Part shown: piece by piece, positions 8,433 to 48,536 of the stretch | How positions within the stretch are numbered: the stretch's first letter is position 1 | How the letters are laid out: every line of letters begins with the position of its first letter | Assembly (NCBI GenBank): GCA_036262515.1 | Contig: DATAIT010000057.1 | Span: 1 to 64,000, forward strand | Source of the DNA: Acidimicrobiales bacterium | Lineage (GTDB): Bacteria > Actinomycetota > Acidimicrobiia > Acidimicrobiales > GCA-2861595 | Length of the DNA: 64,000 nt | Direction of reading: 5' to 3' | Position numbers and translations under genes: made by a program | Notes under the pieces: model-generated | Database searches by the model: none | Told to the model about the DNA's origin: nothing | Seen by the model: only the letters and a program-made list of their open reading frames with translations

Positions 8433-10373
8433 GTGAGCGGGATGCGCTTCGCACGCACGGGTTCGCGGATCTGGATGAAGCTCGCCGCCATTGCGCTGAG
8501 CTTCACCGTCCCGCTCGTCGTCACCACGTGGTTCCTGGTGGAGGAGAAGAACATCAAGATCGAATTCGCCCGCCAAGAGTTGCGGGGCGACCGGTACCTC
8601 CGGCCGCTCACCAAGCTCCTCGGGCACGTCGACCTCCACCGGGCGCTGGCCCGCCGGGATGCTGCGCAGTCGGAGCGGGCACAGGCGCTGGTGGACGACG
8701 ACCTGCGGGACCTGCAGGAGGTCGACAAGGATCTCGCCGACGAGCTCGACACGACGACGAGCGCCCTGAGCGGGCAGGGCCGTGGCTCGGGTGCACCCGA
8801 GCAGCTGCTGGCCACCTGGGAGAGCGCCAAGCTGGCCGGCGACGTGGCCACCAGCGAGCGCCTCCATCAACAGCTCATCACCGATATCCGGCTTCTCGTC
8901 ACCCACGTCGGCGACTCGTCGAAGCTGATCCTCGATCCGGACCTCGACACCTATTACGTGATGGACGCACTCCTGCTGAAGGAGCCGGAGATCGTCGACC
9001 GAATGAGCGGGCTGGCGTCGGTCGTCGACCAGACCGCCGGTGACACGCCCGAGTCCCGCGCCCGACTCGCGGCCGAGGTCGCCCTCCTCCGATATCAGGC
9101 CGACGGCCTCGGAGCCGACCTGGCGACGGCGTTCCGGGAGACCAAGCGGAACAACCACGACGACGCCCTCGAGCCGACCCTCACCCCCCTTCTGGCTCGG
9201 GCGGCGGAAGCCACGGCGCGGGTCGCCGATCTCACCGCGCCCACGGTCGATCGTGCCGCATACGCGACGGCCGTCCGCGACGCCATGGACGCCCATGCGT
9301 CCCTGTGGGCGAGCCTGATCGACCAGGAGGACGTGATGCTCGGCTCGCGGCTGGACGGCGACCTCGGTCGCCGCCGGGTCGCCTTCACGGCCGTCTTCCT
9401 CGCCCTCGTCCTGTCGGTGGCGCTCACCCTGCTGGTGGCCCGGCGCCTGTCGCGCCGAGTCGGGACCGTCGCCGCCGCCGCGGGAGAGCTGGCCGCGGGC
9501 GACCTCGGCAGCAGGGCCCGGGTCGACAGCCACGACGAGATCGGGCTGATGGCCAACGCCTTCAACGCCATGGCCGAGCATCTCGACGTGCTCGTCACCC
9601 AGGTGGCATCGGCCAGCGAGGCGGTCAGCTCGTCGGCCATCGACCTCAGCTCGGCGGCCGAGGAACTGGCGGCGACCACCGTGGAGCAGTCCGCCTCGGT
9701 GACCGAGGCGTCCGCCACCACCGAGGAGCTGGCTCGGGCATCGGCGTCGATCGCCACCACCGTCGACGACGTCGCCGGCCAGGCCGCCGAGACGCGGCTC
9801 AACCTGGAGCAGGCCGAGGCCGACATCCAGGTGTCGTCCGAGCGCACGCTGGCCCTCGCCGAGCGGGTCGGTGAGATCGGCGCCATCCTCACCTTGATCA
9901 ACGAGATCGCCGACCAGACCAATCTCCTGGCTCTCAACGCCGCCATCGAGGCGGCACGAGCGGGCGAGGAGGGGCGCGGGTTCGCCGTCGTGGCCGACGA
10001 GGTGCGTCGCCTGGCCGAACGCTCGAAGACGTCCGCCGCCGACATCGCCACCATCATCGAGGGCATACAGGGCGAGACCAACGCCACGGTGATGGCCATG
10101 GAGAAGGGCTCGAAGCAGATGCAGGACGGCCTCGGGCTCCTCGCGTCCGTCACCGAGGGAACGGCCCAGGTGGGGCTGACCACCCAGCAACAGCGCTCGG
10201 CCACCGCCCAGCTGGTGGAGACGATGGAGCAGCTGAGCGAGGCCAGCCGCCAGGTGTCCGACACCGCCGGGCAGATCGCCACCGCCTCCGCCTCCCTGGC
10301 CCAACTGGCGTCGAACCTGGAGCGCACCGCATCGGTCGCCACGTCGGACCGGGCGAGCGCTCCCTCGACGTAG
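8433..10373 (+). CDS. Methyl-accepting chemotaxis protein, WspA-like position
   Basis: A 646-residue transmembrane receptor: TM1 at about 15-33 ([20 protein letters not shown]), a large extracytoplasmic helical sensor (about 40-305), TM2 ([20 protein letters not shown]), HAMP ([20 protein letters not shown]) and a cytoplasmic hairpin with the invariant tip [20 protein letters not shown] then [20 protein letters not shown]. It lacks a CheR-docking pentapeptide at the C-terminus (ends SAPST). It is the first gene of a seven-gene operon that ends in a diguanylate cyclase. The signal is not predictable from the sequence. GTG 8433 is used; ATG 8442 is an alternative. Confidence 0.9.
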
Positions 10374-10380
10374 GCCGTCG

Positions 10381-10776
10381 GTGCGCGTCCTGCTCCTGCC
10401 CGTCGGCGAGGAGACGTACGCAGTCGACATGGCTGCCGCCCGGGAGGTCGTCGCCGCTCCCGATCTCACCCGGCTACCGGGCGCCCCGTCGACCCTCATG
10501 GGCGTGTTCAACCTCCGGGGGGAGATCGTGCCGGTGTTCGACACGGCGACGCTGCTCGGGATCGGCACCGCGCAGCCGACCTTCGTCGCCGTCATCGAGA
10601 CCGCCTCCGGACCCGCGGGTCTGGCCATGACCGCCATGGGCGCCTCGGTCGACCTGAGCGTGCCGGTGGGCGACACGGAGACGCCGGGCACCTGCGGCTC
10701 CTTCGCGTTCGCTGATCGCCTCGTCGTGCTGATCGATCTCGAGGCGCTCCTCGCGCCCGCCCGGCTGCACGGCTGA
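10381..10776 (+). CDS. cheW: CheW-like coupling protein (first copy)
   Basis: The 131 residues form one CheW domain: MRVLLLPVGEETYAVDMAAA, REVVAAPDLTRLPGAPSTLM and the conserved GVFNLRGEIVPVFD. CheW proteins join receptors to the CheA kinase in the signalling array. It starts with GTG only 7 nt after the MCP stop and ends 15 nt before cheA, so it is part of the same transcript. In the Wsp arrangement this position corresponds to WspB. Confidence 0.85.
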   Translation: MRVLLLPVGEETYAVDMAAAREVVAAPDLTRLPGAPSTLMGVFNLRGEIVPVFDTATLLGIGTAQPTFVAVIETASGPAGLAMTAMGASVDLSVPVGDTETPGTCGSFAFADRLVVLIDLEALLAPARLHG

Positions 10777-10791
10777 GCAGGGCTGAGCACC

Positions 10792-12870
10792 GTGTCGGCG
10801 ACCGGCTACGAGGACGAGTTCCGCCGCCTCTTCGCCGAGGAGGCGGAGGAGCGGCTGGCCGTGCTGGCCCGCGAGCTGCTCGCCCTCGAGCAGGCCGCTG
10901 GTGACGCCGAGCTGGTGGGATCGCTGTTTCGCGAGGCGCACACCCTCAAGGGCGCGGCGGCGGTGGTCGGCATGGAGGAGGTGAGCCTGGTCGCCCACAC
11001 CATGGAGAACCTCCTGGAGCAGCTGCGTGCCGGCGAACGCCAGACCACCTCTGCACTGATCGACGGGCTGCTCGCGGCGGTGGACGCGCTGCAGTCCATG
11101 GTGCCGGCGGTGCTCGACGGTGAGGACATGATGCCGATGGCGCGCCAGGTCCAGCGGGCCCTGGATGCGCTGGCCGACGAGCCCGTCGGGAAACGCTCGT
11201 CCGGGGCGTCCGACCGCGACGAAGCCCCTGTGCAGGCGGCGGCAGAGGCCGCGGCGGCGGAAGCACCGACGACGGCCCGCCGCGCCCATGCCGCCGACGC
11301 CGACGTGGCCCGGGTTCCGCTCGCCCGGCTCGACGAGATCGTGCGCCTGGTCGGCGAGTCGGCGGCGGCGACGCTGCGCGTCGGCCGCCTGGTGGGGGAG
11401 CGCCTCGGGGTCGACCCCGGCACCGTCGACGAGCTACGGGGCCTGTCCCACCTCCTCAACGAGCTGCAGGAGCGGGCCATGCGCACGCGGATGGTGCCGG
11501 TGTCCACCATCACCGACGTGCTGCAACGGGCGGTGCGGGAGGCGGCCCGTGCCACGGGCAAGGACGTCCGGTGGGAGGTCCGGGGCGACGACACGGAGCT
11601 CGACCGGGGCGTGCTCCAGCAGCTGGCGGACCCGCTGCTCCATCTGGTGCGAAACGCCGTGGACCACGGCATCGATCCGCCCGCCGTACGCGCGGCGGCG
11701 GGCAAGCCGGTCCAGGCGGTGGTCCAGCTGCACGCGATGCAGCTCGGCTCGGAGGTGATCATCACGGTGGCGGACGACGGAGGTGGCATCGACGTCGCCA
11801 GGGTGCGGGAGAAGGCGGCGGGCCACGGCGCCGATGTCGCGACGATGTCGGACGAGGAGGCGCTGTACCTCGTGTTCCGGAGCGGGCTCTCCACCGCCGC
11901 GTTCGTGTCCGACATCTCCGGCCGGGGCATAGGTCTCGACGTGGTGCGGGCCAACGTCGAAGCGGTGCGGGGGCGCGTCGAGATCCGGACGGAGCCCGGG
12001 GCCGGCACCGAGTTCCGGGTGATCGTCCCCATCACCCTGGCCGTGCTCCCGTGCCTCCTCGTGACGGCGGGCGGTCAGCGGCTCGCCATTCCGATGCAGT
12101 CGGTGGTGCTCGTCCAAGAGGCGGGCGGCGAGACGCGGTCCGAAGGGCGCCGGCAGGTGAAGGTGGGGACACAGGTCGTCCCGCTCGCGAGCCTGGCAGC
12201 GACCTTCGGGCTCCCGGAGGTCGGCGAGGACGGGCCGGTCGTCGTAGTGGCCGGGCTCACGCGGCGCCATGCCTTCGTGGTCGACGCGCTGCTCGGCCAG
12301 CGCGACGTCGTGGTGAAGGGCCTCAGCCGCCTCGTGCCGCACCTCGCCCTCATCGCCGGCGCCAGCGTCGAACCGGACGGCTCGATCCTCCTGGTGATCG
12401 ACATCGCCGGACTCATCGACCGGGCCCGGCTGTCGCACGCACCGGCGACGGCGGCCGCCGAGAACGGGGGCGATGGCAGCGTGACGGCGCCACCCCTCCG
12501 GCATGCCAACCTGCTGGTCGTGGATGACGCACTCACCGTCCGTGAGCTGCAACGGTCGATCCTCGAGAGAGCCGGATACTCGGTGGTGACGGCTGCCGAC
12601 GGCGAGGAAGCGATGGCCCGCCTGGCCGAGGCCCCGGTCGACCTCGTCCTCACCGACGTCGAGATGCCGCGCATGGACGGATTCGCGTTGACCGAGGCGA
12701 TTCGCGCCCACCCCGAACGCGGCAACGTCCCGATCCTCATCCTGACGTCGCGCGCCAGCGCAGGTGACCGCCAGCGGGGTCTCGAAGCGGGCGCCGACGG
12801 CTACATCATCAAGAGCGCGTTCGACGAGGGGTCCCTCCTCGAGGCCGTGGCCCGGTTGCTCGGTCGGTGA
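10792..12870 (+). CDS. cheA: Hybrid chemotaxis histidine kinase CheA-REC (WspE-like)
   Basis: The 692 residues hold, in order: an Hpt domain with phospho-accepting His50 in REAHTLKGAAAVVG; an Ala-rich linker with no evident P2 domain; a dimerisation segment (ARLDEIVRLVGESAAATLRV); the ATPase with N-box LHLVRNAVDHGID, G1 box ADDGGGID and G2 box GRGIGLDVV; a CheW-like domain; and a C-terminal receiver (LLVVDDALTVRELQ, phospho-Asp in LVLTDVEMPRMDG). A CheA with a fused receiver and no P2 is the WspE layout and not the flagellar one. Its stop overlaps the next gene as GTGA. Confidence 0.9.
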   Translation: MSATGYEDEFRRLFAEEAEERLAVLARELLALEQAAGDAELVGSLFREAHTLKGAAAVVGMEEVSLVAHTMENLLEQLRAGERQTTSALIDGLLAAVDALQSMVPAVLDGEDMMPMARQVQRALDALADEPVGKRSSGASDRDEAPVQAAAEAAAAEAPTTARRAHAADADVARVPLARLDEIVRLVGESAAATLRVGRLVGERLGVDPGTVDELRGLSHLLNELQERAMRTRMVPVSTITDVLQRAVREAARATGKDVRWEVRGDDTELDRGVLQQLADPLLHLVRNAVDHGIDPPAVRAAAGKPVQAVVQLHAMQLGSEVIITVADDGGGIDVARVREKAAGHGADVATMSDEEALYLVFRSGLSTAAFVSDISGRGIGLDVVRANVEAVRGRVEIRTEPGAGTEFRVIVPITLAVLPCLLVTAGGQRLAIPMQSVVLVQEAGGETRSEGRRQVKVGTQVVPLASLAATFGLPEVGEDGPVVVVAGLTRRHAFVVDALLGQRDVVVKGLSRLVPHLALIAGASVEPDGSILLVIDIAGLIDRARLSHAPATAAAENGGDGSVTAPPLRHANLLVVDDALTVRELQRSILERAGYSVVTAADGEEAMARLAEAPVDLVLTDVEMPRMDGFALTEAIRAHPERGNVPILILTSRASAGDRQRGLEAGADGYIIKSAFDEGSLLEAVARLLGR

Positions 12871-13871
12871 CGAACGTGGTCGTGGTCGATGACGCGCCGG
12901 TGCAGCGGGCCTACATCGCCCGGATCCTCCGGACCGACGGCGACATCGCCGTCGTCGGGCAGGCCGACACGGCTCGCCAGGCGATCGACGTGGTGGCCTC
13001 ACTGCGGCCCGACGTGGTCGTGCTGGACCTGCAGATCCCCGGAGGCGGGCAGCACGCCATCGAGCAGATCATGGCGTTCACCCCGACGCCCATCCTCGTG
13101 CTGTCGGCCGGAGTGGACGGTCGCGAGTCGCTCGACGCGGTGGAGGCACTGGTTGCGGGTGCGGTCGACGTGCTGCCCCAGCCGCACCCCGGCGACACAC
13201 CGGCGGAGAACCTGTTGCGGCAGCGGGTGCGGACGCTGCGCGGCGTCACGGTGCTGCGCCATCCGCGGGGGAGCCGTACCTCCGCTCCCGAGGCGAGGCG
13301 CCCGGCTGGTGCCTCGACCGGCATCCCCGTCGTCGCCATCGCCGCGTCGACGGGTGGGCCGGCCGCCCTGTCGCTCGTCCTGTCCGGTCTAACCGGCCTC
13401 CGCGCGCCCGTGCTCGTCATCCAGCACCTGCACCCGGACTTCGTCGACGGCTTCGTGACATGGATGGCGCGTGACGCCGCCCTGCCGGTGGAGCTGGCCC
13501 GTGACGGCGCCGTGGTGAAGCCGGGAGTCATCTACATCGCGCCGGCGGGGACGCACCTCAAGCTCGCCGCCGACCGGCGGATCGTGCTCGACCCCGAGCC
13601 CGAGACGCTTCACCGTCCGTCGGCCAACGCGCTGTTCCACTCCCTGGCCGAGCACGGCGGGCCGGTGATCGGCGTCGTGCTCACGGGAATGGGCGACGAC
13701 GGCGCCACCGGGCTGCTGGCCCTGCGCCGTCGCGGCGCCGTCACGATCGTGCAGGACGAGGAGACGTCGGCGGTGTTCGGCATGCCGCAGGCTGCGCTCC
13801 AGCAGGGCGCCGCCGCTCGCGTGGTCCCCCTCGGGCGGATCGCGGCGACGATCCTGGGAGCGGCGCAATGA
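12867..13871 (+). CDS. cheB: Chemoreceptor glutamate methylesterase CheB (WspF-like)
   Basis: A receiver domain (TNVVVVDDAPVQRAYIARIL, phospho-Asp in VVVLDLQIPGGG) is followed by a full methylesterase domain with the catalytic Ser (AIAASTGGPAAL), His (VIQHLHPDF) and Asp (LTGMGDDGATG). Length 334 residues is usual. The enzyme removes receptor methyl groups to adapt signalling. The conserved receiver Lys seems replaced: the expected K-P motif reads VDVLPQPHPG, so phospho-regulation may differ. GTGA overlap with cheA and ATGA overlap with cheR indicate translational coupling. Confidence 0.9.
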   Translation: MTNVVVVDDAPVQRAYIARILRTDGDIAVVGQADTARQAIDVVASLRPDVVVLDLQIPGGGQHAIEQIMAFTPTPILVLSAGVDGRESLDAVEALVAGAVDVLPQPHPGDTPAENLLRQRVRTLRGVTVLRHPRGSRTSAPEARRPAGASTGIPVVAIAASTGGPAALSLVLSGLTGLRAPVLVIQHLHPDFVDGFVTWMARDAALPVELARDGAVVKPGVIYIAPAGTHLKLAADRRIVLDPEPETLHRPSANALFHSLAEHGGPVIGVVLTGMGDDGATGLLALRRRGAVTIVQDEETSAVFGMPQAALQQGAAARVVPLGRIAATILGAAQ

Positions 13872-15163
13872 GCGACCGTGCGATCGAGGATGCAGCCCGG
13901 CTGCTGTCGCGAGGGGTGGGGCTGCGGCTCGACCCCACCATCCGCGCCCGGCTCACCAGCGCGGTGCGAGCCGAGGCGGAGAGTCGCGGGCTCGACGTTT
14001 CCGCGTACGTCGCCCGCCTCGAGGTGGACCAGGGGGATCTCCAGGATCTGCTCAACCGCGTGACCGTCCAGGAGACCTCGTTCTTCCGCGACGCCGGCCA
14101 GTTCGCAGCCCTCGCCACGCACGTGCTTCCCGCCCTGCGCAGCGCCGGGGTTCCCGTCGTCGTGTGGAGCGCCGGGTGCTCGAACGGGCAGGAGGCCTAC
14201 TCCCTCGCCATGGCGCTGGCAGAGAGCGGGATCCGCAACTGGCGGGTCATCGCCAGCGACATCTCCACCAAGGCGCTCGCCCGGGTGCGCGACGCGCAGT
14301 ACGGGACGCGTGAGGTGGAGGCGCTGTCGGAGGACCGGCGCCGGCGCTTCCTGGTCCCGGTCCGCGGCGAACAGGGCCGGTGGGCGGTCGCCGAGAACCT
14401 TCGTGGCCGAGTGTCCGCCGTGCGCCACAACCTGGCGGCCGATCCTCCCCCGTTCGAGCCCCGGCAGTGCCAGATCGTCTTCTGCCGCAACGTGTTGATC
14501 TACTTCGGGGCCGACGACGTCCTCGCCTTCCTGGAACGCCTCTCGCCATGGCTCGATCCCGGCGCCCACCTCTTCCTCGGGTACAGCGAGTCGCTGTGGC
14601 AGGTGACCGACTCGTTCCACCCCGTGAAGCTGGGTGAGGCGTTCGTCTACCGGCCTGGGCCGCGCCCGGCCGGTCCGAGCCCGGCTGATCTGAGCCCGGC
14701 TGGTCCGAGCCCGGGTGATCCGAGCACGGTCGCAGGTGCGCCGACGGCGCGGCCCTGGAGCTCCCATGAGCGTCGGCCGCCGCCGTACCGCCCGGCAGCC
14801 CAGCCACCGATCGCGCGTGCGCGGCCCGCCCCGGCGACCGCCTCGGCGGGGGTGCCCGGGAGGGACCCGGAGGCGGCACGCCTGCTGGCGGCGGGCGAAT
14901 CGGCGTTGGCGGCCGGGGACCACCAGGGCGCCATCGGTGCATTCCGCAAGGCGGCCTTCATCGAGCCCGACCAGCCGATCGTCCACCTCCATCTCGCCAC
15001 GGCGCTCGAGATGTCCGGTGACGATGTGGCCGCCCGGCGCGCCTACACGGTGGCGCGGTCAGCCATCGACCGGTGCGATCCCGCCGTGCTCGAAGCCACG
15101 CTCGAGGGCTACCAGCTCGGCGAGCTGGTGGGCCTGCTCGAGGCCAAGATCGGCCAGCGATGA
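13868..15163 (+). CDS. cheR: Chemoreceptor methyltransferase CheR with TPR tail (WspC-like)
   Basis: Residues 1-260 form the CheR fold: an N-terminal helical part, the early motif TVQETSFFRDAGQF, the SAM-binding loop VWSAGCSNGQEAYSLAMALA and IVFCRNVLIYFG. A Pro/Ser/Gly/Ala linker built on tandem 15-nt repeats joins it to a C-terminal TPR-like helical part (LLAAGESALAAGDHQGAIGA, VHLHLATALEMSGDD). It methylates receptor glutamates. The TPR tail matches WspC rather than classical CheR. It overlaps both neighbours by 4 nt (ATGA). Confidence 0.9.
   Translation: MSDRAIEDAARLLSRGVGLRLDPTIRARLTSAVRAEAESRGLDVSAYVARLEVDQGDLQDLLNRVTVQETSFFRDAGQFAALATHVLPALRSAGVPVVVWSAGCSNGQEAYSLAMALAESGIRNWRVIASDISTKALARVRDAQYGTREVEALSEDRRRRFLVPVRGEQGRWAVAENLRGRVSAVRHNLAADPPPFEPRQCQIVFCRNVLIYFGADDVLAFLERLSPWLDPGAHLFLGYSESLWQVTDSFHPVKLGEAFVYRPGPRPAGPSPADLSPAGPSPGDPSTVAGAPTARPWSSHERRPPPYRPAAQPPIARARPAPATASAGVPGRDPEAARLLAAGESALAAGDHQGAIGAFRKAAFIEPDQPIVHLHLATALEMSGDDVAARRAYTVARSAIDRCDPAVLEATLEGYQLGELVGLLEAKIGQR
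14672..14731 (+). repeat. Four tandem 15-nt units in the CheR linker
   Basis: The units GGTCCGAGCCCGGCT, GATCTGAGCCCGGCT, GGTCCGAGCCCGGGT and GATCCGAGCACGGTC follow without gaps and encode alternating G/D-P/L-S-P/T-A/G/V pentapeptides. Because 15 is a multiple of 3, copy-number change would lengthen or shorten the linker between methyltransferase and TPR without breaking the frame. Confidence 0.7.
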
Positions 15164-15549
15164 CCACGATCGTGCGCTTCCGCGTCGGCGACGCCCCCTA
15201 TGCCATGCCGGTGGAGCGCATCAGCGAGGTGCGCTCCGCCCGTGACCTCACGCCACTTCCCGACCCTCGCGACGGCGTGGCCGGTCTCATGCGTCGCGGC
15301 GACAGCACGATCACCGTCCTCACGATGTCCGAGCGGGCTGGTCGCCACGTCATCGTCATCGATTCCGGTGCGGCCGAATTCGCGCTGCTGGTCGACGAGG
15401 TCACGGGGGTGCACCGCGTCGACGACGCCTCCGTGCGTCCGTCACCGGCCGGTCAGAGGCACGGAGTGGTCGGCGGCGTGGTCGCCGACGGCGCCGAGCT
15501 GGTGTTCCTCCTCGACGTCAGTGCCCTGGCCAGGCGGTTGACGCCGTGA
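15160..15549 (+). CDS. cheW: CheW-like coupling protein (second copy, WspD-like)
   Basis: The 129 residues form a single CheW domain (MTTIVRFRVGDAPYAMPVER, ISEVRSARDLTPLPDPRDGV, FALLVDEVTGVHRVDDASVR). The GLMRRGDSTITVLTM segment is slightly altered from the usual N-x-R-G-x-x-x-P-V. A second CheW directly after cheR is the wspC-wspD order. ATG 15160 overlaps the cheR stop (ATGA) and the stop overlaps the next GTG (GTGA). Confidence 0.85.
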   Translation: MTTIVRFRVGDAPYAMPVERISEVRSARDLTPLPDPRDGVAGLMRRGDSTITVLTMSERAGRHVIVIDSGAAEFALLVDEVTGVHRVDDASVRPSPAGQRHGVVGGVVADGAELVFLLDVSALARRLTP

Positions 15550-16481
15550 CCGCGGGGATGTCGCCGAACCGGGCCTCCCTCATCCTGGTAGCCGATGACT
15601 CGTTGGTGATGCGCGCCCTGCTGCGCCGCCAGCTCGAGGAGCACGGCCTCGTGGTGGTGGAGGCGGTCGACGGTGAGGACGCCGTGCGGATGTGCCGGGA
15701 CTGGTCGCCGGACATCATCCTCCTCGACGTGGAGATGCCGAAGCTGGACGGGCACGGCGTGCTCGTGCAGCTGCAATCGGACCCCGTGCTGGCCGACATC
15801 CCGGTGGTGTTCCTCACCGCCCGCACGACGACCGACGATGTGGTGGAGGGATTGCGGCTCGGCGCCCACGACTACCTTCGCAAGCCGTTCGCCCCCGCTG
15901 AGCTGCTGGCCCGCGTCAACGCCGCCCTGCGGGTCAAGGCCCTGCAGGACCAGCTGCGGCAGCGCAACGCCGAGCTCGACCTCATGAGCCGCACCGACGC
16001 TCTCACCGGTCTCCCCAACCGCCGGCACATGCAGGATCACCTGAAGGCCGTCGCCTCGTCGGCCTGCGACGAGTCGACACCGTTCGGTCTCCTCATCGTC
16101 GACATCGACCACTTCAAGCTGGTCAACGACACCCTCGGCCATGCGTCCGGCGACGTCGTGTTGCGGGCCATCGCCGACCGTCTCGCCGGCGCCTGCCCGA
16201 GCAACGTCGTCGCCGGGCGCTGGGGTGGCGAGGAGTTCGTGGTGGTCGCACCGGGCACCGACCTCACCGGCGCCGTCGGCCTCGGCGAGCGGCTCAGGGA
16301 GGCTGTGGCCGCCGATCAGGTGTCCCTCGGGGCCGGGCCCGAGGCCAGCATCACGGTCAGCGTCGGAGCAGCCGCCGGCGTCGCCGACGGGGAGTCACTG
16401 CTCCGCGTCGCCGACGCCGCACTCTTTCGTGCCAAGCGCTCGGGCCGAAACCGTGTCTCCACCGCAGACGACGCCCGCTGA
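15546..16481 (+). CDS. Response regulator diguanylate cyclase REC-GGDEF (WspR-like)
   Basis: The 311 residues comprise a receiver (ILVADDSLVMRALLRRQLEE, phospho-Asp in IILLDVEMPKLDG, Lys in YLRKPFAPAE) joined by a helical linker (LRVKALQDQLRQRNAELDLM) to a GGDEF domain (RTDALTGLPNRRHM, DIDHFKLVNDTLGHASGD, signature RWGGEEF). It should make cyclic-di-GMP from GTP when phosphorylated by the upstream CheA. The RxxD product-inhibition site that normally sits just before GGEEF is not seen (CPSNVVAGRWGGEEF), so feedback inhibition is probably weak. GTG start overlaps the cheW stop. Confidence 0.9.
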   Translation: MTAGMSPNRASLILVADDSLVMRALLRRQLEEHGLVVVEAVDGEDAVRMCRDWSPDIILLDVEMPKLDGHGVLVQLQSDPVLADIPVVFLTARTTTDDVVEGLRLGAHDYLRKPFAPAELLARVNAALRVKALQDQLRQRNAELDLMSRTDALTGLPNRRHMQDHLKAVASSACDESTPFGLLIVDIDHFKLVNDTLGHASGDVVLRAIADRLAGACPSNVVAGRWGGEEFVVVAPGTDLTGAVGLGERLREAVAADQVSLGAGPEASITVSVGAAAGVADGESLLRVADAALFRAKRSGRNRVSTADDAR

Positions 16482-28685: not shown

Positions 28686-31600
28686 TCAGGCCGGGGGCTG
28701 CCGCCGGGCCACGCGTGAGCGGTGGAGTCGCAGGAGGGTGTCGTAGACCAGCAGCTCCTGGGCCCGGTGGGCGGTCGTCAGCAGCCGGTTCAGGTGCAGG
28801 TGGACGTAGCTCGTGGCCAGCTGCTCGACGGCGGCCGACAGTCGCCCGGCCCGTTCGAGGTCGGTGAGCTCGAGGCCGATCGGCGCCAGGCGGCGCGACC
28901 GCTGCCAGAGCCCCTCGAAGCGGGCCCCCGTGGCGCCGGGGCGGTCGACGTCGGCCCGCAGCACCTCGTCGAGCCGGTGGCGCCGGGCACGGAAGGTCCG
29001 GCTCAGCTGCTCTTCGAACGGCCCGTCGACGCGGTGCTCCCAGGCATAGATGGCTCGACCCCGTGCGTAGACGGCCAGCTTCTGCTCGTCGTCCAGGCAC
29101 AGGTCGTCGAGCAGGGCGTCGACACCTCGCACGGCCAGCTCCCACCGGTCGTTGGCGTCGTCGCCACCGTCGGAGCCGGCACCGGCGCACAGTGCACCGA
29201 GCACGGCGTCGCTGTCGGCCGAGAAGATGCGCTCGGCGACGAGGATGCCGTCGGCCCCTCCGTACCGCTCGACCTCGCGGTCGTAGGTGTCGAGCTGGAG
29301 CCCCCATGCCGCGCCGTCGTCGACGGCCGTGCCCAGGGCCCGGGTGACCTCGTTGGCCACGTGGAGCGGGTCGGTGCCGGCGGCGGCATGGAACCGCACG
29401 CGCAGGTGCCAGTGCGGGTCGCCGTAGCGCACGAAGAACCAGCCGTCGGCGTGACCGTGGTCGAACAGCCGCCGGCGGAGCGGGTCGACGACGTCCCGGA
29501 GCAGGACGTCGACGGCGGACGGGCCGGCGTAGACCTTGGCCGAGACCCACTCTGAGCCCGGTGGGAAGCTCCGGCGCACGGGCGACGGCGCCAGGGGGGC
29601 GGGGCGGGGGCGGCGGTTCGGCAGCGCCGACGTGAAGGGCACGACGATCTCGGAGGTGAAGCGGCCTTCCGGCCCGCGGGCACACAGGCGGTCGGGCGAT
29701 GGGAACACCTCTTCGAGCACGGCGTGCGATCGACCGCGGACGAGGTGGACGAACGACTCCGCCGACAGGACGTTCTCGAGATCGACGAGCAGGGCGGCGT
29801 CAGCGTCGACCAGTGTGACGAGCCGCGGGATCTCGCGGTCGAGCCGCCACGCCCGGATGCGCCGGGCCAGCTGCGGGCCGCTGGCGGCGCCGAGCCAGCC
29901 CAGTTCGTCGGCGGTGACCTGCCATCGGGCGAGGGACAGCACGAGCCGGCCCGAGCGGACCCTCGGCAGGAACGGCGCGTGCTCGAGCGCTCCCCAGGTC
30001 CAGGACAGGCCCGCTCGCACGCCCTGCGTCTGCAAGGACGCCAGCAGCCGGTACACGGCGGGGCCGCTCCGGGTGAAGTCGTGGGCGGTCGTGCTCCTCG
30101 GGACGACCCGGCGGCCGAGCCGGCGGGAGCGGAGGACGACTTCGCCGTCGACGACGGAGACCAGGAGGTCGCCGAGCGCGATCTGGCGGTCGGGCGAGGC
30201 GCCCGAGGTCCCGAGGCAGGCGATCTCGTAGCCCCGCAGCACCGGCCGGGCGACGACGTTGTCGAACGGAGCCTCGGGTTGGTGGACGATCTCGGCCCAC
30301 ACCGCGTCGGGGTCCTGCGCCTCCTCCGCCCGCAGATGCTGCTCGACGTGGCCGAGCAGGCCCGGGTCGGTGTGGCAGAACCGCCCGAGCAGCCAGGCCC
30401 CGGACGGGCCGCCGACGGCCCGGAGGAGCACCGAGAAATCGCCGCTGTCAAGTGCGCTGTCGCTGTCGGCTTCCAGCGAGGCGAGGACGGCGAAGGCGCC
30501 GGGGAGCGGGAGCGGGGGAGCGTCGTCGGCCAGCGCCTCCAGGTCGTCGGCCTCGAGCACCATCTCGGTGCTGCGCCGGGCCGTGGTGGCGAGCAGCAGG
30601 CCGAGCAGGACGTCGTCCCCGGGCAGCTTGGGCGCCGCCGGGGGGGGTGGCGGTGGGAACGACAGTCCGTCGAGGGGCGCAGCGGTGAGCGCCGGCGGGC
30701 CGAACCCGATGCCGGTCTCGTCGTCGACGGCCTCCAGGAGTGGCACCTCGCGGCCGCCGTACCGCTGCTCGAAGGCGTCGCGGAACCGGTCGATGTCGCC
30801 GGGCGTGCGCCGCCGGGCGATGCCCTGCAGCAGGGCCACGCCGCGGGCGATCTCGTCGAGCACCCGGCTGCCCAGCGTGATGTCGGTCGCCGGTTTCACC
30901 AGGTCGACGTGGAAGCGTGCCTCGGCCGCACCGGCGGCCGGCAGGGCATCGAGCTCCCTGCCGAGCACGCGGTAGCGCTCGGGCGCCGCACCGAGCCCGG
31001 CGGCGTCGACGTCGGACAGCTCGTCGGCGGCCGCTCGCAGCGTCTTGGCCACCGCCGCGCTCGACGGCGCCGCCTCCAGCAGGTCGGCCAGGCCTTCGAT
31101 CGGCTCGCCGCCGGTGACCGGGACGCGGGCGCTCGGCACGAGCACCTGCGAGCGCACCAGCTCGTCGACGTAGCGGGCCGCGCCGCCGTGGCGGTCGACT
31201 CCACCGGCGACCGCCTCGACCAGCTGGGCCGTCGTGGCGCCTCCCTCGGCCCGGGCCAGCGCCGAACGAAGCCGCGGCGTGTCGGGCGCCCCCCGGAAGC
31301 CGGCCGGGGCCCGCTCGCCCGCCTGCACCCAGCGGACGCCGCCCGGCGAGCGGTGGAGGGAGGGGTTGGGGGCGAACGGCACGTCGGCGCCCGTGTCGCC
31401 GGCGGTGGAGACCCCGAGAGCCAGCGCCGCCAGGTACGAGGCGTCGACCCTGGTCCGCCGGCGGTAGCGGTCCCTCGGTTCCAGGACGAGGCGGGTGCGC
31501 TGTCCCGTCGTGCCGACGGAGACGCCGGCGAACAGGCCGAAGGGCGTGGCACGCGACGCGGCCCGCACCAGATAGCGGGCCAGCGCCCGCTCGATGCCCT

Positions 31601-31892
31601 GGCCCCGCTCGCTGTTGGGATCCCGCCGCCAGAGCGGTATCGAGGCTTCGAGATCCGGAGAGGCGAGGAAGACGGCCTCGCGGATCTCGGGCCGCTCCAG
31701 CAGGTCGGCCAGCCGGCGCCGCAGGCGCAGGCGGTCGCGGGGGAGCGCCTCGTCGAGGAGGGTGCCGCCGATGGCGGGAGCGCCGAGGTCCTTGCCCAAC
31801 CTCGTGAGCTCGTCGTACGGGAGAAGCGGCGTGCGAAGGACGAAGAAGCCGGCCGGCGAGAGCGCTTGCTTCACGCCCGGCATGGTGTCCAT
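28686..31892 (-). CDS. Full-length LanB-type lanthipeptide dehydratase
   Basis: The roughly 1068-residue protein begins SPAGFFVLRTPLLPYDELTR and has the long N-terminal glutamylation domain of LanB (RYLVRAASRATPFGLFAGVS is its conserved Arg-rich turn; LSFPPPPPPAAPKLPGDD links subdomains). It ends with the SpaB_C-type elimination domain (SEWVSAKVYAGPSAVDVLLR, GWFFVRYGDPHWHLRVRFHA). The enzyme uses Glu-tRNA to glutamylate Ser/Thr of a precursor peptide and then eliminates glutamate to give dehydroamino acids. No LanC cyclase, protease or obvious precursor is seen in the window. ATG 31892 or 31883 is the likely start. Confidence 0.88.
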   Translation of the reverse strand: MDTMPGVKQALSPAGFFVLRTPLLPYDELTRLGKDLGAPAIGGTLLDEALPRDRLRLRRRLADLLERPEIREAVFLASPDLEASIPLWRRDPNSERGQGIERALARYLVRAASRATPFGLFAGVSVGTTGQRTRLVLEPRDRYRRRTRVDASYLAALALGVSTAGDTGADVPFAPNPSLHRSPGGVRWVQAGERAPAGFRGAPDTPRLRSALARAEGGATTAQLVEAVAGGVDRHGGAARYVDELVRSQVLVPSARVPVTGGEPIEGLADLLEAAPSSAAVAKTLRAAADELSDVDAAGLGAAPERYRVLGRELDALPAAGAAEARFHVDLVKPATDITLGSRVLDEIARGVALLQGIARRRTPGDIDRFRDAFEQRYGGREVPLLEAVDDETGIGFGPPALTAAPLDGLSFPPPPPPAAPKLPGDDVLLGLLLATTARRSTEMVLEADDLEALADDAPPLPLPGAFAVLASLEADSDSALDSGDFSVLLRAVGGPSGAWLLGRFCHTDPGLLGHVEQHLRAEEAQDPDAVWAEIVHQPEAPFDNVVARPVLRGYEIACLGTSGASPDRQIALGDLLVSVVDGEVVLRSRRLGRRVVPRSTTAHDFTRSGPAVYRLLASLQTQGVRAGLSWTWGALEHAPFLPRVRSGRLVLSLARWQVTADELGWLGAASGPQLARRIRAWRLDREIPRLVTLVDADAALLVDLENVLSAESFVHLVRGRSHAVLEEVFPSPDRLCARGPEGRFTSEIVVPFTSALPNRRPRPAPLAPSPVRRSFPPGSEWVSAKVYAGPSAVDVLLRDVVDPLRRRLFDHGHADGWFFVRYGDPHWHLRVRFHAAAGTDPLHVANEVTRALGTAVDDGAAWGLQLDTYDREVERYGGADGILVAERIFSADSDAVLGALCAGAGSDGGDDANDRWELAVRGVDALLDDLCLDDEQKLAVYARGRAIYAWEHRVDGPFEEQLSRTFRARRHRLDEVLRADVDRPGATGARFEGLWQRSRRLAPIGLELTDLERAGRLSAAVEQLATSYVHLHLNRLLTTAHRAQELLVYDTLLRLHRSRVARRQPPA

Positions 31893-32008
31893 CGCGCCCG
31901 CCGTCGCCCGGCACCGCTGCGAGCGTCGGCCGGCACCGACCCGGTGCACGGACCGCGAGCGTCCCCCCGGCTGCCTCGAAGAGGCGCTTTCCGTCCCTTC
32001 CCCCGCAT
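31871..32008 (-). CDS. Possible 45-residue small ORF overlapping the LanB start
   Basis: A minus-strand frame opens at ATG 32008, 9 nt after a TATACT box, and ends in TGA at 31871, inside the first codons of the dehydratase gene. It would encode a basic peptide (MRGKGRKAPLRGSRGDARGP then CTGSVPADARSGAG ... WTPCRA) with two Cys, three Ser and two Thr. Position and promoter fit a precursor or a leader peptide, but composition is not typical and the reading could be chance in GC-rich DNA. Low confidence. Confidence 0.2.
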   Translation of the reverse strand: MRGKGRKAPLRGSRGDARGPCTGSVPADARSGAGRRRARWTPCRA

Positions 32009-32017
32009 ACCAGCGTT

Positions 32018-32023
32018 AGTATA
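32018..32023 (-). promoter_or_regulatory. AT-rich promoter of the LanB gene (-10 TATACT)
   Basis: On the minus strand GTGTTGACGGACCTATACTA (32036-32017) stands out in this GC-rich DNA. TATACT at 32023-32018 is a near-perfect -10. A TTGACG at 32033-32028 with TATGCG 18 nt further is an alternative pair. It gives the dehydratase its own promoter, separate from the phosphopantetheinyl transferase that ends at 32089. Confidence 0.5.
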
Positions 32024-32088
32024 GGTCCGTCAACACTGACCGAGCCAGCGCTTTGGGTCGAATGTCTCGGCGCTCGTGCCGCCGCTCG

Positions 32089-32766
32089 TCACGGACCGGC
32101 GACGAACATGCGGATGTCGTGCACCGCCCCGGCGCACGCGAGGGCGCCCACCAGCGGCAGGTCCACGGCCAGGGGGGCCATGCTCCACCCGTTCCACGTC
32201 GAGGTGCGACCGCCGGTGGTGTCGACGTCCTTGAGAGGCCCGGCCAGGCCGACGCCCATGGCCTTGAGCACGGCCTCCTTCGCCACCCACCGCTCGTAGT
32301 AGCCGACGCAGCGGACGGCGGCATCGGGCGACGACGACTCGGTCTGGCGTCGCTCGGCGTCCGAGAACACGATGTCGACCATGGCGCTCCAGTCGAAGTC
32401 GGGGCGAACGACCTCGATGTCGACGCCCACGTCGGCCGAGCCGGAGAAGGCGAAGACGGTGGTGTCGCCTGCGTGGGCCACGCTGACCCGCAGCGGCGAG
32501 GGCTTCCCGTCCACGACCACCACCGGCCTTCCGTGCGGTCCGCCGCACCGGGCACACGTGCGCTCGACGGTGAGGTCGCCGTCGGGCAGGTACCGCCGCG
32601 CCAGGTCGCGCAGCACGAGCCGCAGGGCCTCGGTCCGTCGCCCCCGGGCTCCGGGGCCGGGCGGCTCCTGGGCGCGGCGGTGCACCCACGCGTGGCACTC
32701 GCCGCGCGCCAGGGTGGCCAGGGGCCCGGAGTCGCCTCGAGCCTCGTCGCCGGCGCTCACCGCCAC
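32089..32766 (-). CDS. 4'-phosphopantetheinyl transferase (Sfp type)
   Basis: The 225 residues carry the Sfp-family motifs: GRPVVVVDGKPSPLRVSVAH, the Mg-binding GVDIEVVRPD and WVAKEAVLKAMGVGL. The enzyme moves phosphopantetheine from CoA onto carrier proteins of polyketide, peptide or fatty-acid synthases. No carrier-protein gene lies in the window, so its target is elsewhere or it serves a peptide or lipid pathway linked to this locus. GTG 32766 follows the glycosyltransferase stop by 20 nt, so the two are probably co-transcribed. Confidence 0.85.
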   Translation of the reverse strand: MAVSAGDEARGDSGPLATLARGECHAWVHRRAQEPPGPGARGRRTEALRLVLRDLARRYLPDGDLTVERTCARCGGPHGRPVVVVDGKPSPLRVSVAHAGDTTVFAFSGSADVGVDIEVVRPDFDWSAMVDIVFSDAERRQTESSSPDAAVRCVGYYERWVAKEAVLKAMGVGLAGPLKDVDTTGGRTSTWNGWSMAPLAVDLPLVGALACAGAVHDIRMFVAGP

Positions 32767-32786
32767 CTCAGGCGCGCGCCGCCATG

Positions 32787-33743
32787 TCAGGCGCTCGGGA
32801 GCTCACCGGTGACGCGCTGGAACCTCGGATTGGGGCCCTTGCGCCCCCTCACCCCGTCCCAGAGGCCCTGGAGCGTGGCCAGGCGGGCCGCCCCCGTCCG
32901 GGCCAGTTGCATGCGCCGGGCCGAGTAGGCGAGGTGGTTCGCCGTCCACAGCGGCGTCCCGTGGCGCCTCGACAGGAGGAAGAAGTTGCGGGCCACGTAG
33001 TACGCCCGCCACGGCTCGTCGGCGTCGATCGGGCGCTCGGCCGACAGCGCCTCGTCCCACCCGGCCGACGTCATGTGCCGGGCCGTGGCCGTGGCGCTCT
33101 CCCGGTCGACCAGGACGCGGAACCCGGCCGCCTTGACCCGGAACCAGAAGTCGAAGTCCTCGTACCCGAAGAACCACGTCTCGTCGGGGAGCACGCCGGC
33201 CCGCACGACCCGGCTCGGCACGAGGCTCGCTCCCCATGCGGCTGCGTCGATCTCGTCGAAGCCCGATCGGGTGGTCGCCGTGTAGATGCTCGTGCCGCCG
33301 CTGCGGCGGTCGAGGCACCGCCCGTACGGGACGACCCCCCCGACGGGGGCGCCGGGCACGGCGCGCTCGTACGCCTCGGCCCCGGCGATGAGCCGGCTCA
33401 CCCGGGGGGCGGGGATGTCGAGCACGGCGATGTCGTCCTCGCAGAGGTAGATCCAGCGGGTGGCCGGCATGGCTGCCGCCACCACCAGCCCGTGGCGGAA
33501 CCCCCCGGCGGGACCCAGGTTCACTGGTAGGCGCTCCACCCGGATGGAGGCCTCCAGGTCGGCATCCTCGAGGCCACCCTCGCCGTTCACGACGAGCACG
33601 ACGTCGGCGGGACGGAAGCCCTCGGTCGAGATCAGCTGGCGCACGACCTGCGTGGCCAGCCGCTTTCTCCGGAAGGTGAGCACCACGGCGACGGTGCCCG
33701 CCGGCGGACAGCGGTCGTCAGCGCGCACGCCCAAGGATCGCAC
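32787..33743 (-). CDS. Family 2 (GT-A) glycosyltransferase
   Basis: From GTG 33743 the 318-residue protein has a GT-A fold: AVVLTFRRKRLATQVVRQLI, DVVLVVNGEGGLEDADLEAS, NLGPAGGFRHGLVVAAAMPA and the metal-binding acidic motif WIYLCEDDIAVLD (E-D-D in place of D-x-D). Further on, ETWFFGYEDFDFWFRVKAAG is the acceptor-site ED pattern of rhamnosyl- and galactofuranosyl-transferase relatives. It likely adds a sugar to the surface polymer from a nucleotide donor. The frame upstream of 33743 is not protein-like. Confidence 0.82.
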   Translation of the reverse strand: MRSLGVRADDRCPPAGTVAVVLTFRRKRLATQVVRQLISTEGFRPADVVLVVNGEGGLEDADLEASIRVERLPVNLGPAGGFRHGLVVAAAMPATRWIYLCEDDIAVLDIPAPRVSRLIAGAEAYERAVPGAPVGGVVPYGRCLDRRSGGTSIYTATTRSGFDEIDAAAWGASLVPSRVVRAGVLPDETWFFGYEDFDFWFRVKAAGFRVLVDRESATATARHMTSAGWDEALSAERPIDADEPWRAYYVARNFFLLSRRHGTPLWTANHLAYSARRMQLARTGAARLATLQGLWDGVRGRKGPNPRFQRVTGELPSA

Positions 33744-33812
33744 GCCGTTCCGAGGGGCGGCAGGGCCGGGGCCGCCCGGGCGCCCCGTAGTGGCCGGGAC
33801 GGGGACGCCTGG

Positions 33813-34175
33813 CGCGCGACGTGCCGGTGGCTCACGGGCGCGGCGGTTTCCGGCGGCGGTGATCCCGACACCTCCGGCTCGGCCACGCTCGTCGTCGACC
33901 GGGCGGCGAAGACGCTGTGCTACAGCCTCTCGTGGTCGTCGGTCGACGGAACCGTGACCGCTGCGCACGTGCACCAGGCGCCGGCTGAACAGGTCGGGCC
34001 GCACGTCGTCGACCTGTTCAACGGCGCGTCGTTGCCCGGCACCGGATCGGCGTCCGGTTGCGTCGCGGTGACGGCGACGCAGATCGCCACGCTGGTGCGC
34101 AGCCCGTCCCAGTTCTACGTGAACCTCCACTCGACGAGCTACCCGTCGGAAGCGCTGCGGGGCCAGCCGGGCTGA
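33813..34175 (+). pseudogene. CHRD-domain protein fragment without a start
   Basis: On the plus strand, inside the minus-strand polysaccharide operon, one frame reads LTGAAVSGGGDPDTSGSATL, AAKTLCYSLSWSSVDGTVTA, AHVHQAPAEQVGPHVVDLF and SPSQFYVNLHSTSYPSEALR-GQPG to TGA 34175. That is most of a CHRD domain (A-H-I-H ... Y-V-N-V-H-T ... G-x-I-R-G-Q-L). No start codon or signal peptide is present in frame upstream, although such proteins are exported. It looks like a decayed or inserted fragment. Confidence 0.6.
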
Positions 34176-34262
34176 CCGCCGGCGACAGAGCCCAGCTGCT
34201 CGAGGAGCGCCCTGGCCGCGGCTATCGCGGCCAGGGCGTCCTCGCGTTCGTCGCCCACGTCC

Positions 34263-35192
34263 TCAGGACACGGCGTGGCGCAGGCGCCTGGACAAGTAGC
34301 CCCACACGGTCGGGTGGCTGCGGAGGCACGATGGCTCGTCCGACAGAGGCGTCACGATCTCGGGGGCGTCGCCGGCCAGCAACGGCTTCACCGCGTCGAG
34401 CAGCGGGCGCACCCCGGCCGCCAGGTGCAGGTAGGGGTAGGTGGCGAACGAGTCGGCGGGGGTGACGCCGAAGGTCACCTGGGCCAGCACCGGCCCGGTG
34501 TCGATGCCCTGGTCGATGATGTGCACGGTGGAGCCGACCAGCTCGGGACGGCCCTCGGCCAGCGCCCAGTAGCCGCCGTGGACACCCCGGTACTGCGGCG
34601 CCACGCCGGCGTGGAGGTTGACGAAGGTGGCCTTGACGGCGTTGAGCGTCTTGGCGGAGATGACCCGCGTGCCCGACACCACCACCACCGTCGGGTTGAG
34701 GGCCATGAGCACGGCCCGACCCTCGTCGGAGTTGACGGAGGGGATGTGGACCACCGGTTGATCGATGGGCGACACGTCGAGGTCGTTGTCGTCGAGCACG
34801 GCGGCGATGCGCTTGGCGCCCCGGCGCTGGAGGACCGGCACCGTCACCACCGAGAACAGCAGCTGGCCGGCGACGGTCCGAAGTCCGAGCTTCTTGGCCC
34901 GCTTGGCGAGCAGGGAGCGACGTGACACCCGTTGCTCCAGCACCACGGACACGTACCCGAAGCGCTGGCGCAGCGCGTGGAACAACACGTTGGTGGCCGG
35001 GCAGGGCGAGCCGAGCAGGACGAGACGGGCCGTGCCGGGCAGGCCCGGGCCGTCGCCGTCGAGGTGCAGCACTTCGGAGTCGTGGGCGGGGGCAGCCGCC
35101 AGTGGACGCACGCCCGGCGGGGAGACGACGCGCACGTCGCCGCCCCAGTCGGTGGGGGATGTCGTCTGAGCCATGACGTCGCCGTTCAGCAC
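34263..35192 (-). CDS. Formyltransferase-domain protein
   Basis: The 309 residues carry a formyl-transferase (N10-formyl-THF) fold: LVLLGSPCPATNVLFHALRQ, NPTVVVVSGTRVISAKTLNA, FVNLHAGVAPQYRGVHGGYW (catalytic N-x-H) and STVHIIDQGIDTGPVLAQVT (catalytic D). Length and start differ from Met-tRNA formyltransferase, and the genomic setting among sugar genes suggests N-formylation of an amino sugar. The GTG at 35192 overlaps the CapD stop by 7 nt; an ATG at 35174 is an alternative. Substrate is inferred, not proven. Confidence 0.72.
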   Translation of the reverse strand: MLNGDVMAQTTSPTDWGGDVRVVSPPGVRPLAAAPAHDSEVLHLDGDGPGLPGTARLVLLGSPCPATNVLFHALRQRFGYVSVVLEQRVSRRSLLAKRAKKLGLRTVAGQLLFSVVTVPVLQRRGAKRIAAVLDDNDLDVSPIDQPVVHIPSVNSDEGRAVLMALNPTVVVVSGTRVISAKTLNAVKATFVNLHAGVAPQYRGVHGGYWALAEGRPELVGSTVHIIDQGIDTGPVLAQVTFGVTPADSFATYPYLHLAAGVRPLLDAVKPLLAGDAPEIVTPLSDEPSCLRSHPTVWGYLSRRLRHAVS

Positions 35193-37150: not shown

Positions 37151-38388
37151 CCCCTCACCGCCTCGGCGGCCGGCAGCGCCGCCGCCAGGCGAGTACCGAC
37201 GGTTCCCGTCCCGGAAGGTTCGGGGGACGGCAGGTGGCGGGCGGCCGGGTCGGCCCGTCGGCCGCGATCGACGACGTCGCCGTAGATGGCCTCGACCCGC
37301 CGGGTGGCGCTGGCGATGTCGAACTGGGCCCCGCATGCCCGGGCCGCCACCGACATGCGGGCCCGCGCCGGCTCGTCGACGACCATCTGGGTGAGCGCCC
37401 GGGCCAGCTCGCCGGCGTGGCCGGGGGTCACCATGAGCCCCTCGACGCCGTCGGTGACCACGCTCGGGATGCCGCCCACCGTCGACGTCACCGTGGGCAC
37501 GCCGAGGGCGAGCGCCTCCATGACCGAGACCGGGAACCCTTCGGACAGCGAGGCCAGGGCGAACACGTCGAAGCCGGCCAGCACCCGCACGGCGTCGGCC
37601 CGGCCGCCGAGCAGCAAGAAGCGGTCGCCCAGGCCCAGCTTCCGATGCAGCGCCTCGACCTCGGCTTCGAGGGGCCCCACGCCCACCGCCGCGAAGCGCA
37701 CGGGCAGATCGAGGTCGACCAGGGCTCGTGCCACGGGCAGCAGCACGTCGTAGCCCTTGCCCTCGCGCATGTTGGCCACGGTGCCCACCAGGACCTCGTC
37801 GTCACCGACTCCAAGCTCGCGGCGGACCTCCGACCGCCACGTCTGGCGGGCGTCGAACTGCTGGTAGGGCACGCCGTGGACGACCACCTCCATGCGCCGC
37901 CGGAGGCGGGCGGGGACGGCCTCCTTGACCGGGTGCGACACCGCCACACTGGCCGCGTCGAGGCCCATGGTGGCCGCGTTCAGCGCCCGCAGCATCACCG
38001 GGTTGGTGGTCCAGGTGTTGTGCTCGGTGGTCACCGTCTTGGGCCGGGCATGGGCCGGGAGCGACCGCACCACAAGGCGGCCGAGGGCGGCGGTGTACGG
38101 CAGGTGGAAGTGGACGACGTCGAAGCGCCGCTCGAGCAGCAGCTGGCGCAGGCGCCGCATCCACCGCAGGTCGCCGTTGTGGTCGCTTGCGCCCAGGCAG
38201 TGCACGGGGATGCCGGCGGCCTCCAGCTCGGGCACGAGGGCGTTCATGGAGGGCAGCACGTAGGCCGCCTCGTAGTCGAATCGCTCGGCGTCGCGGGACA
38301 TCGCAGCCGAGACCAGAAGACGTTCCGCGCCCCCGAAGCCCAGACACTTGATGCACCACAGAACGCGCGAACGTGAGTCGCTCGTCAA
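37147..38388 (-). CDS. Family 4 (GT-B) glycosyltransferase
   Basis: The 413-residue enzyme has the GT-B double Rossmann form: LWCIKCLGFGGAERLLVSAA at the N-terminus, RFDVVHFHLPYTAALGRLVV, and in the donor half VLVGTVANMREGKGYDVLLP and FALASLSEGFPVSVMEALAL, the E-x7-E retaining motif. It is the first gene of the run 37147, 35186, 34263 on the minus strand. The start is TTG at 38388; no better ATG or GTG is in frame. Promoter region with an inverted repeat lies 39 nt upstream. Confidence 0.88.
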   Translation of the reverse strand: MTSDSRSRVLWCIKCLGFGGAERLLVSAAMSRDAERFDYEAAYVLPSMNALVPELEAAGIPVHCLGASDHNGDLRWMRRLRQLLLERRFDVVHFHLPYTAALGRLVVRSLPAHARPKTVTTEHNTWTTNPVMLRALNAATMGLDAASVAVSHPVKEAVPARLRRRMEVVVHGVPYQQFDARQTWRSEVRRELGVGDDEVLVGTVANMREGKGYDVLLPVARALVDLDLPVRFAAVGVGPLEAEVEALHRKLGLGDRFLLLGGRADAVRVLAGFDVFALASLSEGFPVSVMEALALGVPTVTSTVGGIPSVVTDGVEGLMVTPGHAGELARALTQMVVDEPARARMSVAARACGAQFDIASATRRVEAIYGDVVDRGRRADPAARHLPSPEPSGTGTVGTRLAAALPAAEAVRG

Positions 38389-38426
38389 TGCAGACCCCCA
38401 CAGCCCCAGATCGCAGGAGAACTCAG

Positions 38427-38445
38427 TAGGTGCTCAGTACACCTA
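38427..38445. promoter_or_regulatory. Inverted repeat in the promoter region of the polymer operon
   Basis: TAGGTG-N7-CACCTA lies 39 nt upstream of the GT4 start at 38388, within the 352-nt AT-richer gap (38389-38740) between that gene and the divergent haloperoxidase gene. Size and symmetry fit a dimeric regulator site. The rest of the gap shows no gene and no riboswitch I can name. Confidence 0.4.
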
Positions 38446-38740
38446 TGGAGTGGTCCTTTGTTCGCTGGACCCTACAACATGGACCGTGGAGCGACAAGGG
38501 CGAATAATCAAAATCGGCCGGTGCGCTGGGCTCGCTGCCGCGGGGTTCCGCGAATTTCTCCTTGTAGTACCCGGCAATGATGACTATCGTCGCATGGGGT
38601 TCACCGGAATAGGTGCGAAGCAACGACGCTCTGGGGGCGATCAGACAGACCGGACGCCGCCACCTGACGGGTGTCCGGGGGCTGGTTCCGGCGCGCCTAC
38701 GACCACGCACGGTGGCCACTCGAGCCAGGGGAGGCACGAC

Positions 38741-48495: not shown

Positions 48496-48536
48496 GAGCC
48501 GCCGGTAGGTGCAGTGGTCGGTCGTATGCCACCATC

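Follow-up and report, generated by a model that had tools for sequence, protein, structure and literature searches.

A Chemosensory Operon with Wsp-Like Parts and a Diguanylate Cyclase Output in an Actinobacterium

Gene Content and Layout of the Operon

We analyzed a 64,000-nt stretch of DNA (hereafter, the window) from a member of the Acidimicrobiales and found seven intact genes on its forward strand at 8433–16481, which Pfam matches identify in the order MCP, CheW, CheA with a receiver (REC), CheB, CheR with a TPR region, CheW, and REC-GGDEF (Table 1). An initial annotation made from the sequence had listed the same parts, and the Pfam searches confirmed it. At four junctions, consecutive genes overlap by four bases (GTGA at 12867–12870, ATGA at 13868–13871 and 15160–15163, and GTGA at 15546–15549), the number and motifs given in that annotation, and the start codon of CheW2 is the ATG at 15160; gaps of 7 and 15 bases separate MCP from CheW1 and CheW1 from CheA. 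The codon-position G+C of the operon genes is gene-like, with GC3 of 0.88–0.92. A scan for a promoter and a terminator gave no match, and, as had also been claimed, neither a stand-alone CheY nor a flagellar gene lies inside 8433–16481. We consider the chemosensory operon confirmed as real and intact.

Table 1. Coordinates of the operon features in the window and the evidence for them
Feature	Position	Strand	Evidence
MCP (chemoreceptor), 646 aa	8433..10373	+	Pfam, hydropathy, alignments
CheW1 coupling protein, 131 aa	10381..10776	+	Pfam
CheA hybrid kinase, 692 aa	10792..12870	+	Pfam
CheB methylesterase, 334 aa	12867..13871	+	Pfam, alignment
CheR methyltransferase, 431 aa, TPR-like region at the C terminus	13868..15163	+	Pfam
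CheW2 coupling protein, 129 aa	15160..15549	+	Pfam, junction check
REC-GGDEF diguanylate cyclase, 311 aa	15546..16481	+	Pfam, alignment
I-site position in GGDEF domain, PSNV replacing RxxD	16197..16208	+	alignment

Kinase, Adaptation Enzymes, and Cyclase

The CheA protein combines Hpt, H-kinase_dim, HATPase_c, CheW, and C-terminal Response_reg domains (the latter with Asp622) by Pfam. Its Hpt histidine is residue 50, the His50 of the initial annotation, which had also described a kinase without P2 and with a C-terminal receiver; Pfam indeed gives no P2 match, and an Ala/Pro-rich linker takes the P2 position. The TPR matches at the C terminus of CheR are weak but consistent; CheR-TPR proteins were described in 2012 as almost exclusively Gram-negative (PMC3447774). 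In CheB, which matches Response_reg and CheB_methylest, the receiver keeps Asp54 and has Gln105 where a conserved Lys is expected. This Lys varies among relatives and is also missing from the sampled WspF proteins. Because the CheB receiver lacks the residue and some relatives have lost more, phosphate-driven adaptation may be weak in this operon. Decay of the CheB receiver is uneven among related operons, with Lys replaced by Gln in the window and the phosphoacceptor Asp replaced in genome G281 (locus L192).

The cyclase keeps Asp61, Thr91, Lys113, and GGEEF and can be aligned over its full length with the PleD and WspR structures, showing 34% identity to WspR versus 52–56% within the actinobacterial clade defined below. 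The I-site reads PSNV in the window copy, RADD, RAED, or RTED in relatives, and RPSD in Pseudomonas WspR, and a straightforward prediction is that product inhibition via this site has been lost in the window cyclase.

Receptor Architecture

Pfam recognizes HAMP and MCPsignal domains in the MCP, and hydropathy predicts two transmembrane segments (residues 13–31 and 316–334) with an external domain of about 285 residues between them; a CheR-tethering pentapeptide was not found at the C terminus. The signaling domains of the relatives' receptors are strongly conserved. For nearly all relatives, the alignment scores of the external domains are no higher than those of shuffled sequence (highest z 2.8), and the external domain of the window receptor neither aligns with WspA nor matches a Pfam domain even at E 0.1. 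Folded from the single sequence, it is predicted as all-helical at low confidence (mean pLDDT 57.9), and a Foldseek search with this low-confidence model returned nothing significant, the best match being the four-helix domain of PcaY_PP (E 0.064). As even close relatives have sensor domains that cannot be aligned with one another, surface sensing by the operon receptor is unsupported, and the control of surface life suggested in the initial annotation gains nothing from the sensor domain. In G033 (L062 9777–13349), two adjacent MCP genes with near-identical signaling and different external domains precede CheW1; a recent receptor duplication and a sensor swap are candidate readings of the pair.

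Signaling-domain alignments also provided the receptor length. The receptors of the actinobacterial clade and of G466 have 14 residues fewer per arm than WspA and than the other sampled ACF and PilJ-like receptors and 7 fewer than the receptors adjoining the flagellar CheA of relatives, while their arms equal those of Escherichia coli Tar and Tap. With the class names taken from the literature and the lengths counted in our alignments, the operon receptor is by this measure of 36H length, two heptads per arm below 40H. In the literature, 40H receptors are ACF-compatible, 38H receptors belong to F5, and 36H receptors to F7 (PMC10746217). Here, a 36H-length receptor is paired with a nonflagellar, non-E. 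coli-like kinase.

Genome Context

The assembly comprises 3.41 Mb and is 97.8% complete and 0.4% contaminated. One MCP and three CheW domains were found in the whole genome, all within the operon, which is thus the only chemosensory system of the genome. The initial annotation had named an intact flagellar locus using this kinase as an outcome that would count against its reading; FlhA (PF00771) has no match in the whole genome, and it is present in 23 of the 99 relatives sampled. The presumed actinobacterial origin was borne out by six WhiB genes, a family found among 14 control genomes only in Corynebacterium.

GGDEF and EAL proteins are numerous, with 23 GGDEF matches (two of which may be halves of one gene) and 12 EAL matches, and there is one PilZ match. 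With about 22 further GGDEF matches in the genome, the window cyclase need not dominate the cellular c-di-GMP pool. Contig C25 carries a type IV pilus locus encoding PilC, PilM, a pilin, a PilB bearing MshEN, and another ATPase in a PilT-like position; a further MshEN-bearing ATPase is found on contig C97; the pilus locus and the operon are on different contigs.

Conservation among Relatives

In the sample of relatives, the order of the window organism is represented by about 60 families. CheA orthologues are sparse, at about 46–65% identity: a search at E 1e-85 found 10 genomes, including the window's own, among 397 members of the order. One of the 10, G597 (38% identity), has a different arrangement and is not a row in our trees. 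Further orthologues occur elsewhere in the phylum (G281, G111, and G215), and the operon is absent from the same-genus genome G001.

Some ten further actinobacteria, in a patchy distribution, share the gene order. It is complete in G018, G281, and G627 as well as in the window and colinear up to the contig ends in six genomes (G059, G033, G050, G071, G111, and G568); G012 has the same order except that CheW2 is missing. A REC-GGDEF gene occupies the same slot in G018, G012, G071, G281, G627, and G059, where it is cut by the contig end. It is absent from the output slot in two clade members: in G215, no REC-GGDEF follows downstream, and in G651 (L255 13220–13954), the translation after CheW2 reads as the beginning of a GAF-like protein that runs off the contig. 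FlhA was found in none of the seven operon carriers checked, although with a chance probability of 0.15 this is not significant alone. In a genome of the same family (G003, L066), we observed a different ACF-like cluster made up of CheR, CheW, MCP, CheA, and CheB; it groups with Myxococcota and Planctomycetota rows, and a stop codon breaks the reading frame of its CheA ahead of the receiver.

Phylogenetic Placement

In a 90-row CheA tree, the window kinase fell within a nine-row clade containing only actinobacteria (support 100/99) and outside the Pil-Chp clade. A 53-row tree of CheA and CheB again gave an actinobacteria-only clade (100/100), with G466 as its sister (95/93), and recovered separate clades for the Wsp systems of five Pseudomonas and two Cupriavidus (100/100) and for the flagellar type (100/99). 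When E. coli was added, it joined a Verrucomicrobia row within the flagellar clade, and the picture for the window was unchanged. The window system is nested in neither the Wsp nor the flagellar group. Such trees had been proposed in the initial annotation, with a position among flagellar classes as the outcome that would count against it; neither CheA nor CheB took that position in the CheA and CheA+CheB trees.

Relation to Known Chemosensory Classes

In the scheme of Wuichet and Zhulin, the operon resembles the ACF class in that it is nonflagellar, its CheA is a hybrid, its CheR carries a TPR region, and its response regulator bears the output domain. A hybrid CheA and a CheR-TPR are typical of ACF pathways (PMC3447774, PMC10782961). 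The kinase is outside the flagellar and Tfp clades, flagella are absent, and the output is not CheY, features assessed here from tree position and domain content. In the literature, ACF systems are associated with 40H receptors (PMC10746217), which is not a strict criterion, whereas the window has a 36H-length receptor. The operon is best filed as a variant of the known nonflagellar (ACF) chemosensory pathways. Six species of actinobacteria are on record as having ACF systems (PMC10746217), which may or may not include the operon type of the window, and no account of the type came up in the main texts of the part of the literature that we searched.

Other GGDEF-bearing ACF clusters, those of Nitrosospira (L092), Deferrisomatales (L132), and the actinobacterial G164 and G329, have MCP, CheA:REC, CheB, CheR, and REC/GGDEF in common with the window but differ in gene order, tree position, and receptors, which are 14 residues longer per arm. 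A cluster on the Deinococcus grandis plasmid pDEGR-1 (L240) shares MCP, CheA:REC, CheB, and a terminal REC-GGDEF; we rejected it as an instance of the same gene order, as its CheA is without Hpt, the Hpt forming a separate gene before the cyclase, and CheW-CheR-CheW lie upstream. Two flagellar classes were also considered and rejected. F5, usual in late actinobacterial classes and having a CheA with an extra CheW domain and 38H receptors, does not match in CheA clade, receptor length, or domains. For the E. coli-like F7, with its 36H receptors, the CheA/CheB of E. coli falls in the flagellar clade, apart from the window.

Interpretation and Alternatives

We think it likely that the operon encodes a stand-alone, nonflagellar chemosensory phosphorelay of ACF type that sets c-di-GMP, with wiring similar to that of Wsp and within a distinct actinobacterial clade. 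We favor this reading because the domain set and the overlaps are complete, the MCP and CheW genes are the only ones in the genome, FlhA is absent, the output slot is conserved in most relatives, the clade is restricted to actinobacteria and lies outside the flagellar ones, and a hybrid CheA and a CheR-TPR are typical of ACF pathways, and also because the cyclase keeps its phosphoacceptor, switch Lys, and GGEEF and the genome holds MshEN-bearing pilus ATPases along with a c-di-GMP network. The altered CheB receiver, the two clade members with no REC-GGDEF in the output slot, and the many other GGDEF proteins of the genome weigh against it.

The pathway could instead mainly control twitching by the type IV pilus, linked to it by c-di-GMP or by a direct regulator as in Tfp-class systems. 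The lack of flagella and the pilus locus with its two kinds of ATPase fit this alternative, which we nevertheless judge unlikely: the kinase is placed outside the Pil-Chp clade, the operon has no single receivers resembling PilG or PilH, and the pilus genes are on another contig.

The initial annotation called the system Wsp-type and regarded it as convergent or transferred. Its comparison of parts stands, as Wsp of Pseudomonas and betaproteobacteria has the same set in one operon, namely MCP, two CheW, CheA with a C-terminal receiver, CheB, CheR-TPR, and a terminal REC-GGDEF, and a c-di-GMP output in common with that predicted from the window genes. Family membership does not stand. The Wsp order A-B-C-D-E-F-R, sampled in Pseudomonas and Cupriavidus loci as A-B-C-(D)-E-F-R, contrasts with A-B-E-F-C-D-R in the window and its relatives, a difference from Pseudomonas that had been pointed out before. 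Wsp has been defined by the conserved synteny of wspA–wspF and reported from beta- and gammaproteobacteria only (PMC8552884), and the window operon lacks this synteny. The Wsp receptor is of 40H length with an unrelated sensor domain, and WspR has a longer stalk than the window cyclase, whose I-site is lost. A true Wsp system sensing surface contact, horizontally transferred from proteobacteria, is therefore improbable on the evidence of the separate closed clades, the receptor length and unalignable external domain, the gene order, and the low cyclase identity to WspR. In approximately unbiased (AU) tests, a joint clade of the window group and WspE was not rejected with CheA alone (p 0.45) and reached p 0.043 with CheA and CheB combined; a deeper common origin with Wsp is possible on these sequence data. 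By analogy, it is plausible that the system works like Wsp, from receptor to kinase to diguanylate cyclase, while its being Wsp is not supported by the comparisons above.

That the operon is a flagellar or motility chemotaxis system that outlived its flagella, the cyclase being a bystander, we regard as very improbable. Flagella occur in the 23 of 99 relatives noted above, and a clade joining the window group to the flagellar type was not rejected in the AU test (p 0.164), but the CheA of flagellate relatives is different and in its own clade, their receptors are longer by 7 residues per arm, the REC-GGDEF gene is translationally coupled and conserved in its slot, and the carriers checked have no FlhA. 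A decaying, nonfunctional operon is scarcely credible: the I-site and the CheB receiver Lys are lost in the window copy and the same-genus genome has no operon, but all seven frames are open, the overlaps are intact, GC3 is typical of genes, the other catalytic motifs are kept, and the operon is conserved across distant families.

In the favored ACF-type phosphorelay, a stimulus reaching the external domain of the receptor would alter the activity of the receptor–CheW–CheA array. Judging from what is known of the protein families, CheA would autophosphorylate at His50 and pass the phosphate to Asp61 of REC-GGDEF, which, once phosphorylated, would synthesize c-di-GMP. The receivers of CheA and CheB may serve as phosphate sink and feedback, and CheR-TPR and CheB would adapt the receptor by methylation. 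The effectors would be encoded elsewhere in the genome, most plausibly type IV pili, reached through PilB-type ATPases with MshEN domains, or else the one PilZ protein.

More tentatively, and with somewhat less than even confidence, we suggest that actinobacteria independently assembled a receptor-to-diguanylate-cyclase pathway with the same kinds of parts as Wsp, with an array type of their own of 36H length and fast-changing sensor domains, and that it is here the sole array and purely for c-di-GMP. A separate lineage with these parts would show the coupling of receptor arrays to c-di-GMP to be a recurring solution. Having no flagellum and a single receptor, a single kinase, and a single cyclase coupled to them, the organism would be a simple natural test system for an array-driven cyclase, and the same genome would allow asking whether 36H-length receptors can serve a nonmotility kinase. 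Because the family is separate from Wsp, the signal and the role of the operon are to be worked out afresh.

Other Features of the Window

Outside the operon, the window contains a full-length LanB-type lantibiotic dehydratase with both domains on the reverse strand (28689–31949), and the neighboring genes at 32092–35192 include a 4'-phosphopantetheinyl transferase and a formyl transferase; together, 28689–35192 is a possible natural-product cluster. On the forward strand, we found a protein with DUF6851 and a vanadium-chloroperoxidase-like helical domain (38348–40303) and a large regulator with GAF, HATPase, and SpoIIE-type phosphatase domains (47727–50774).
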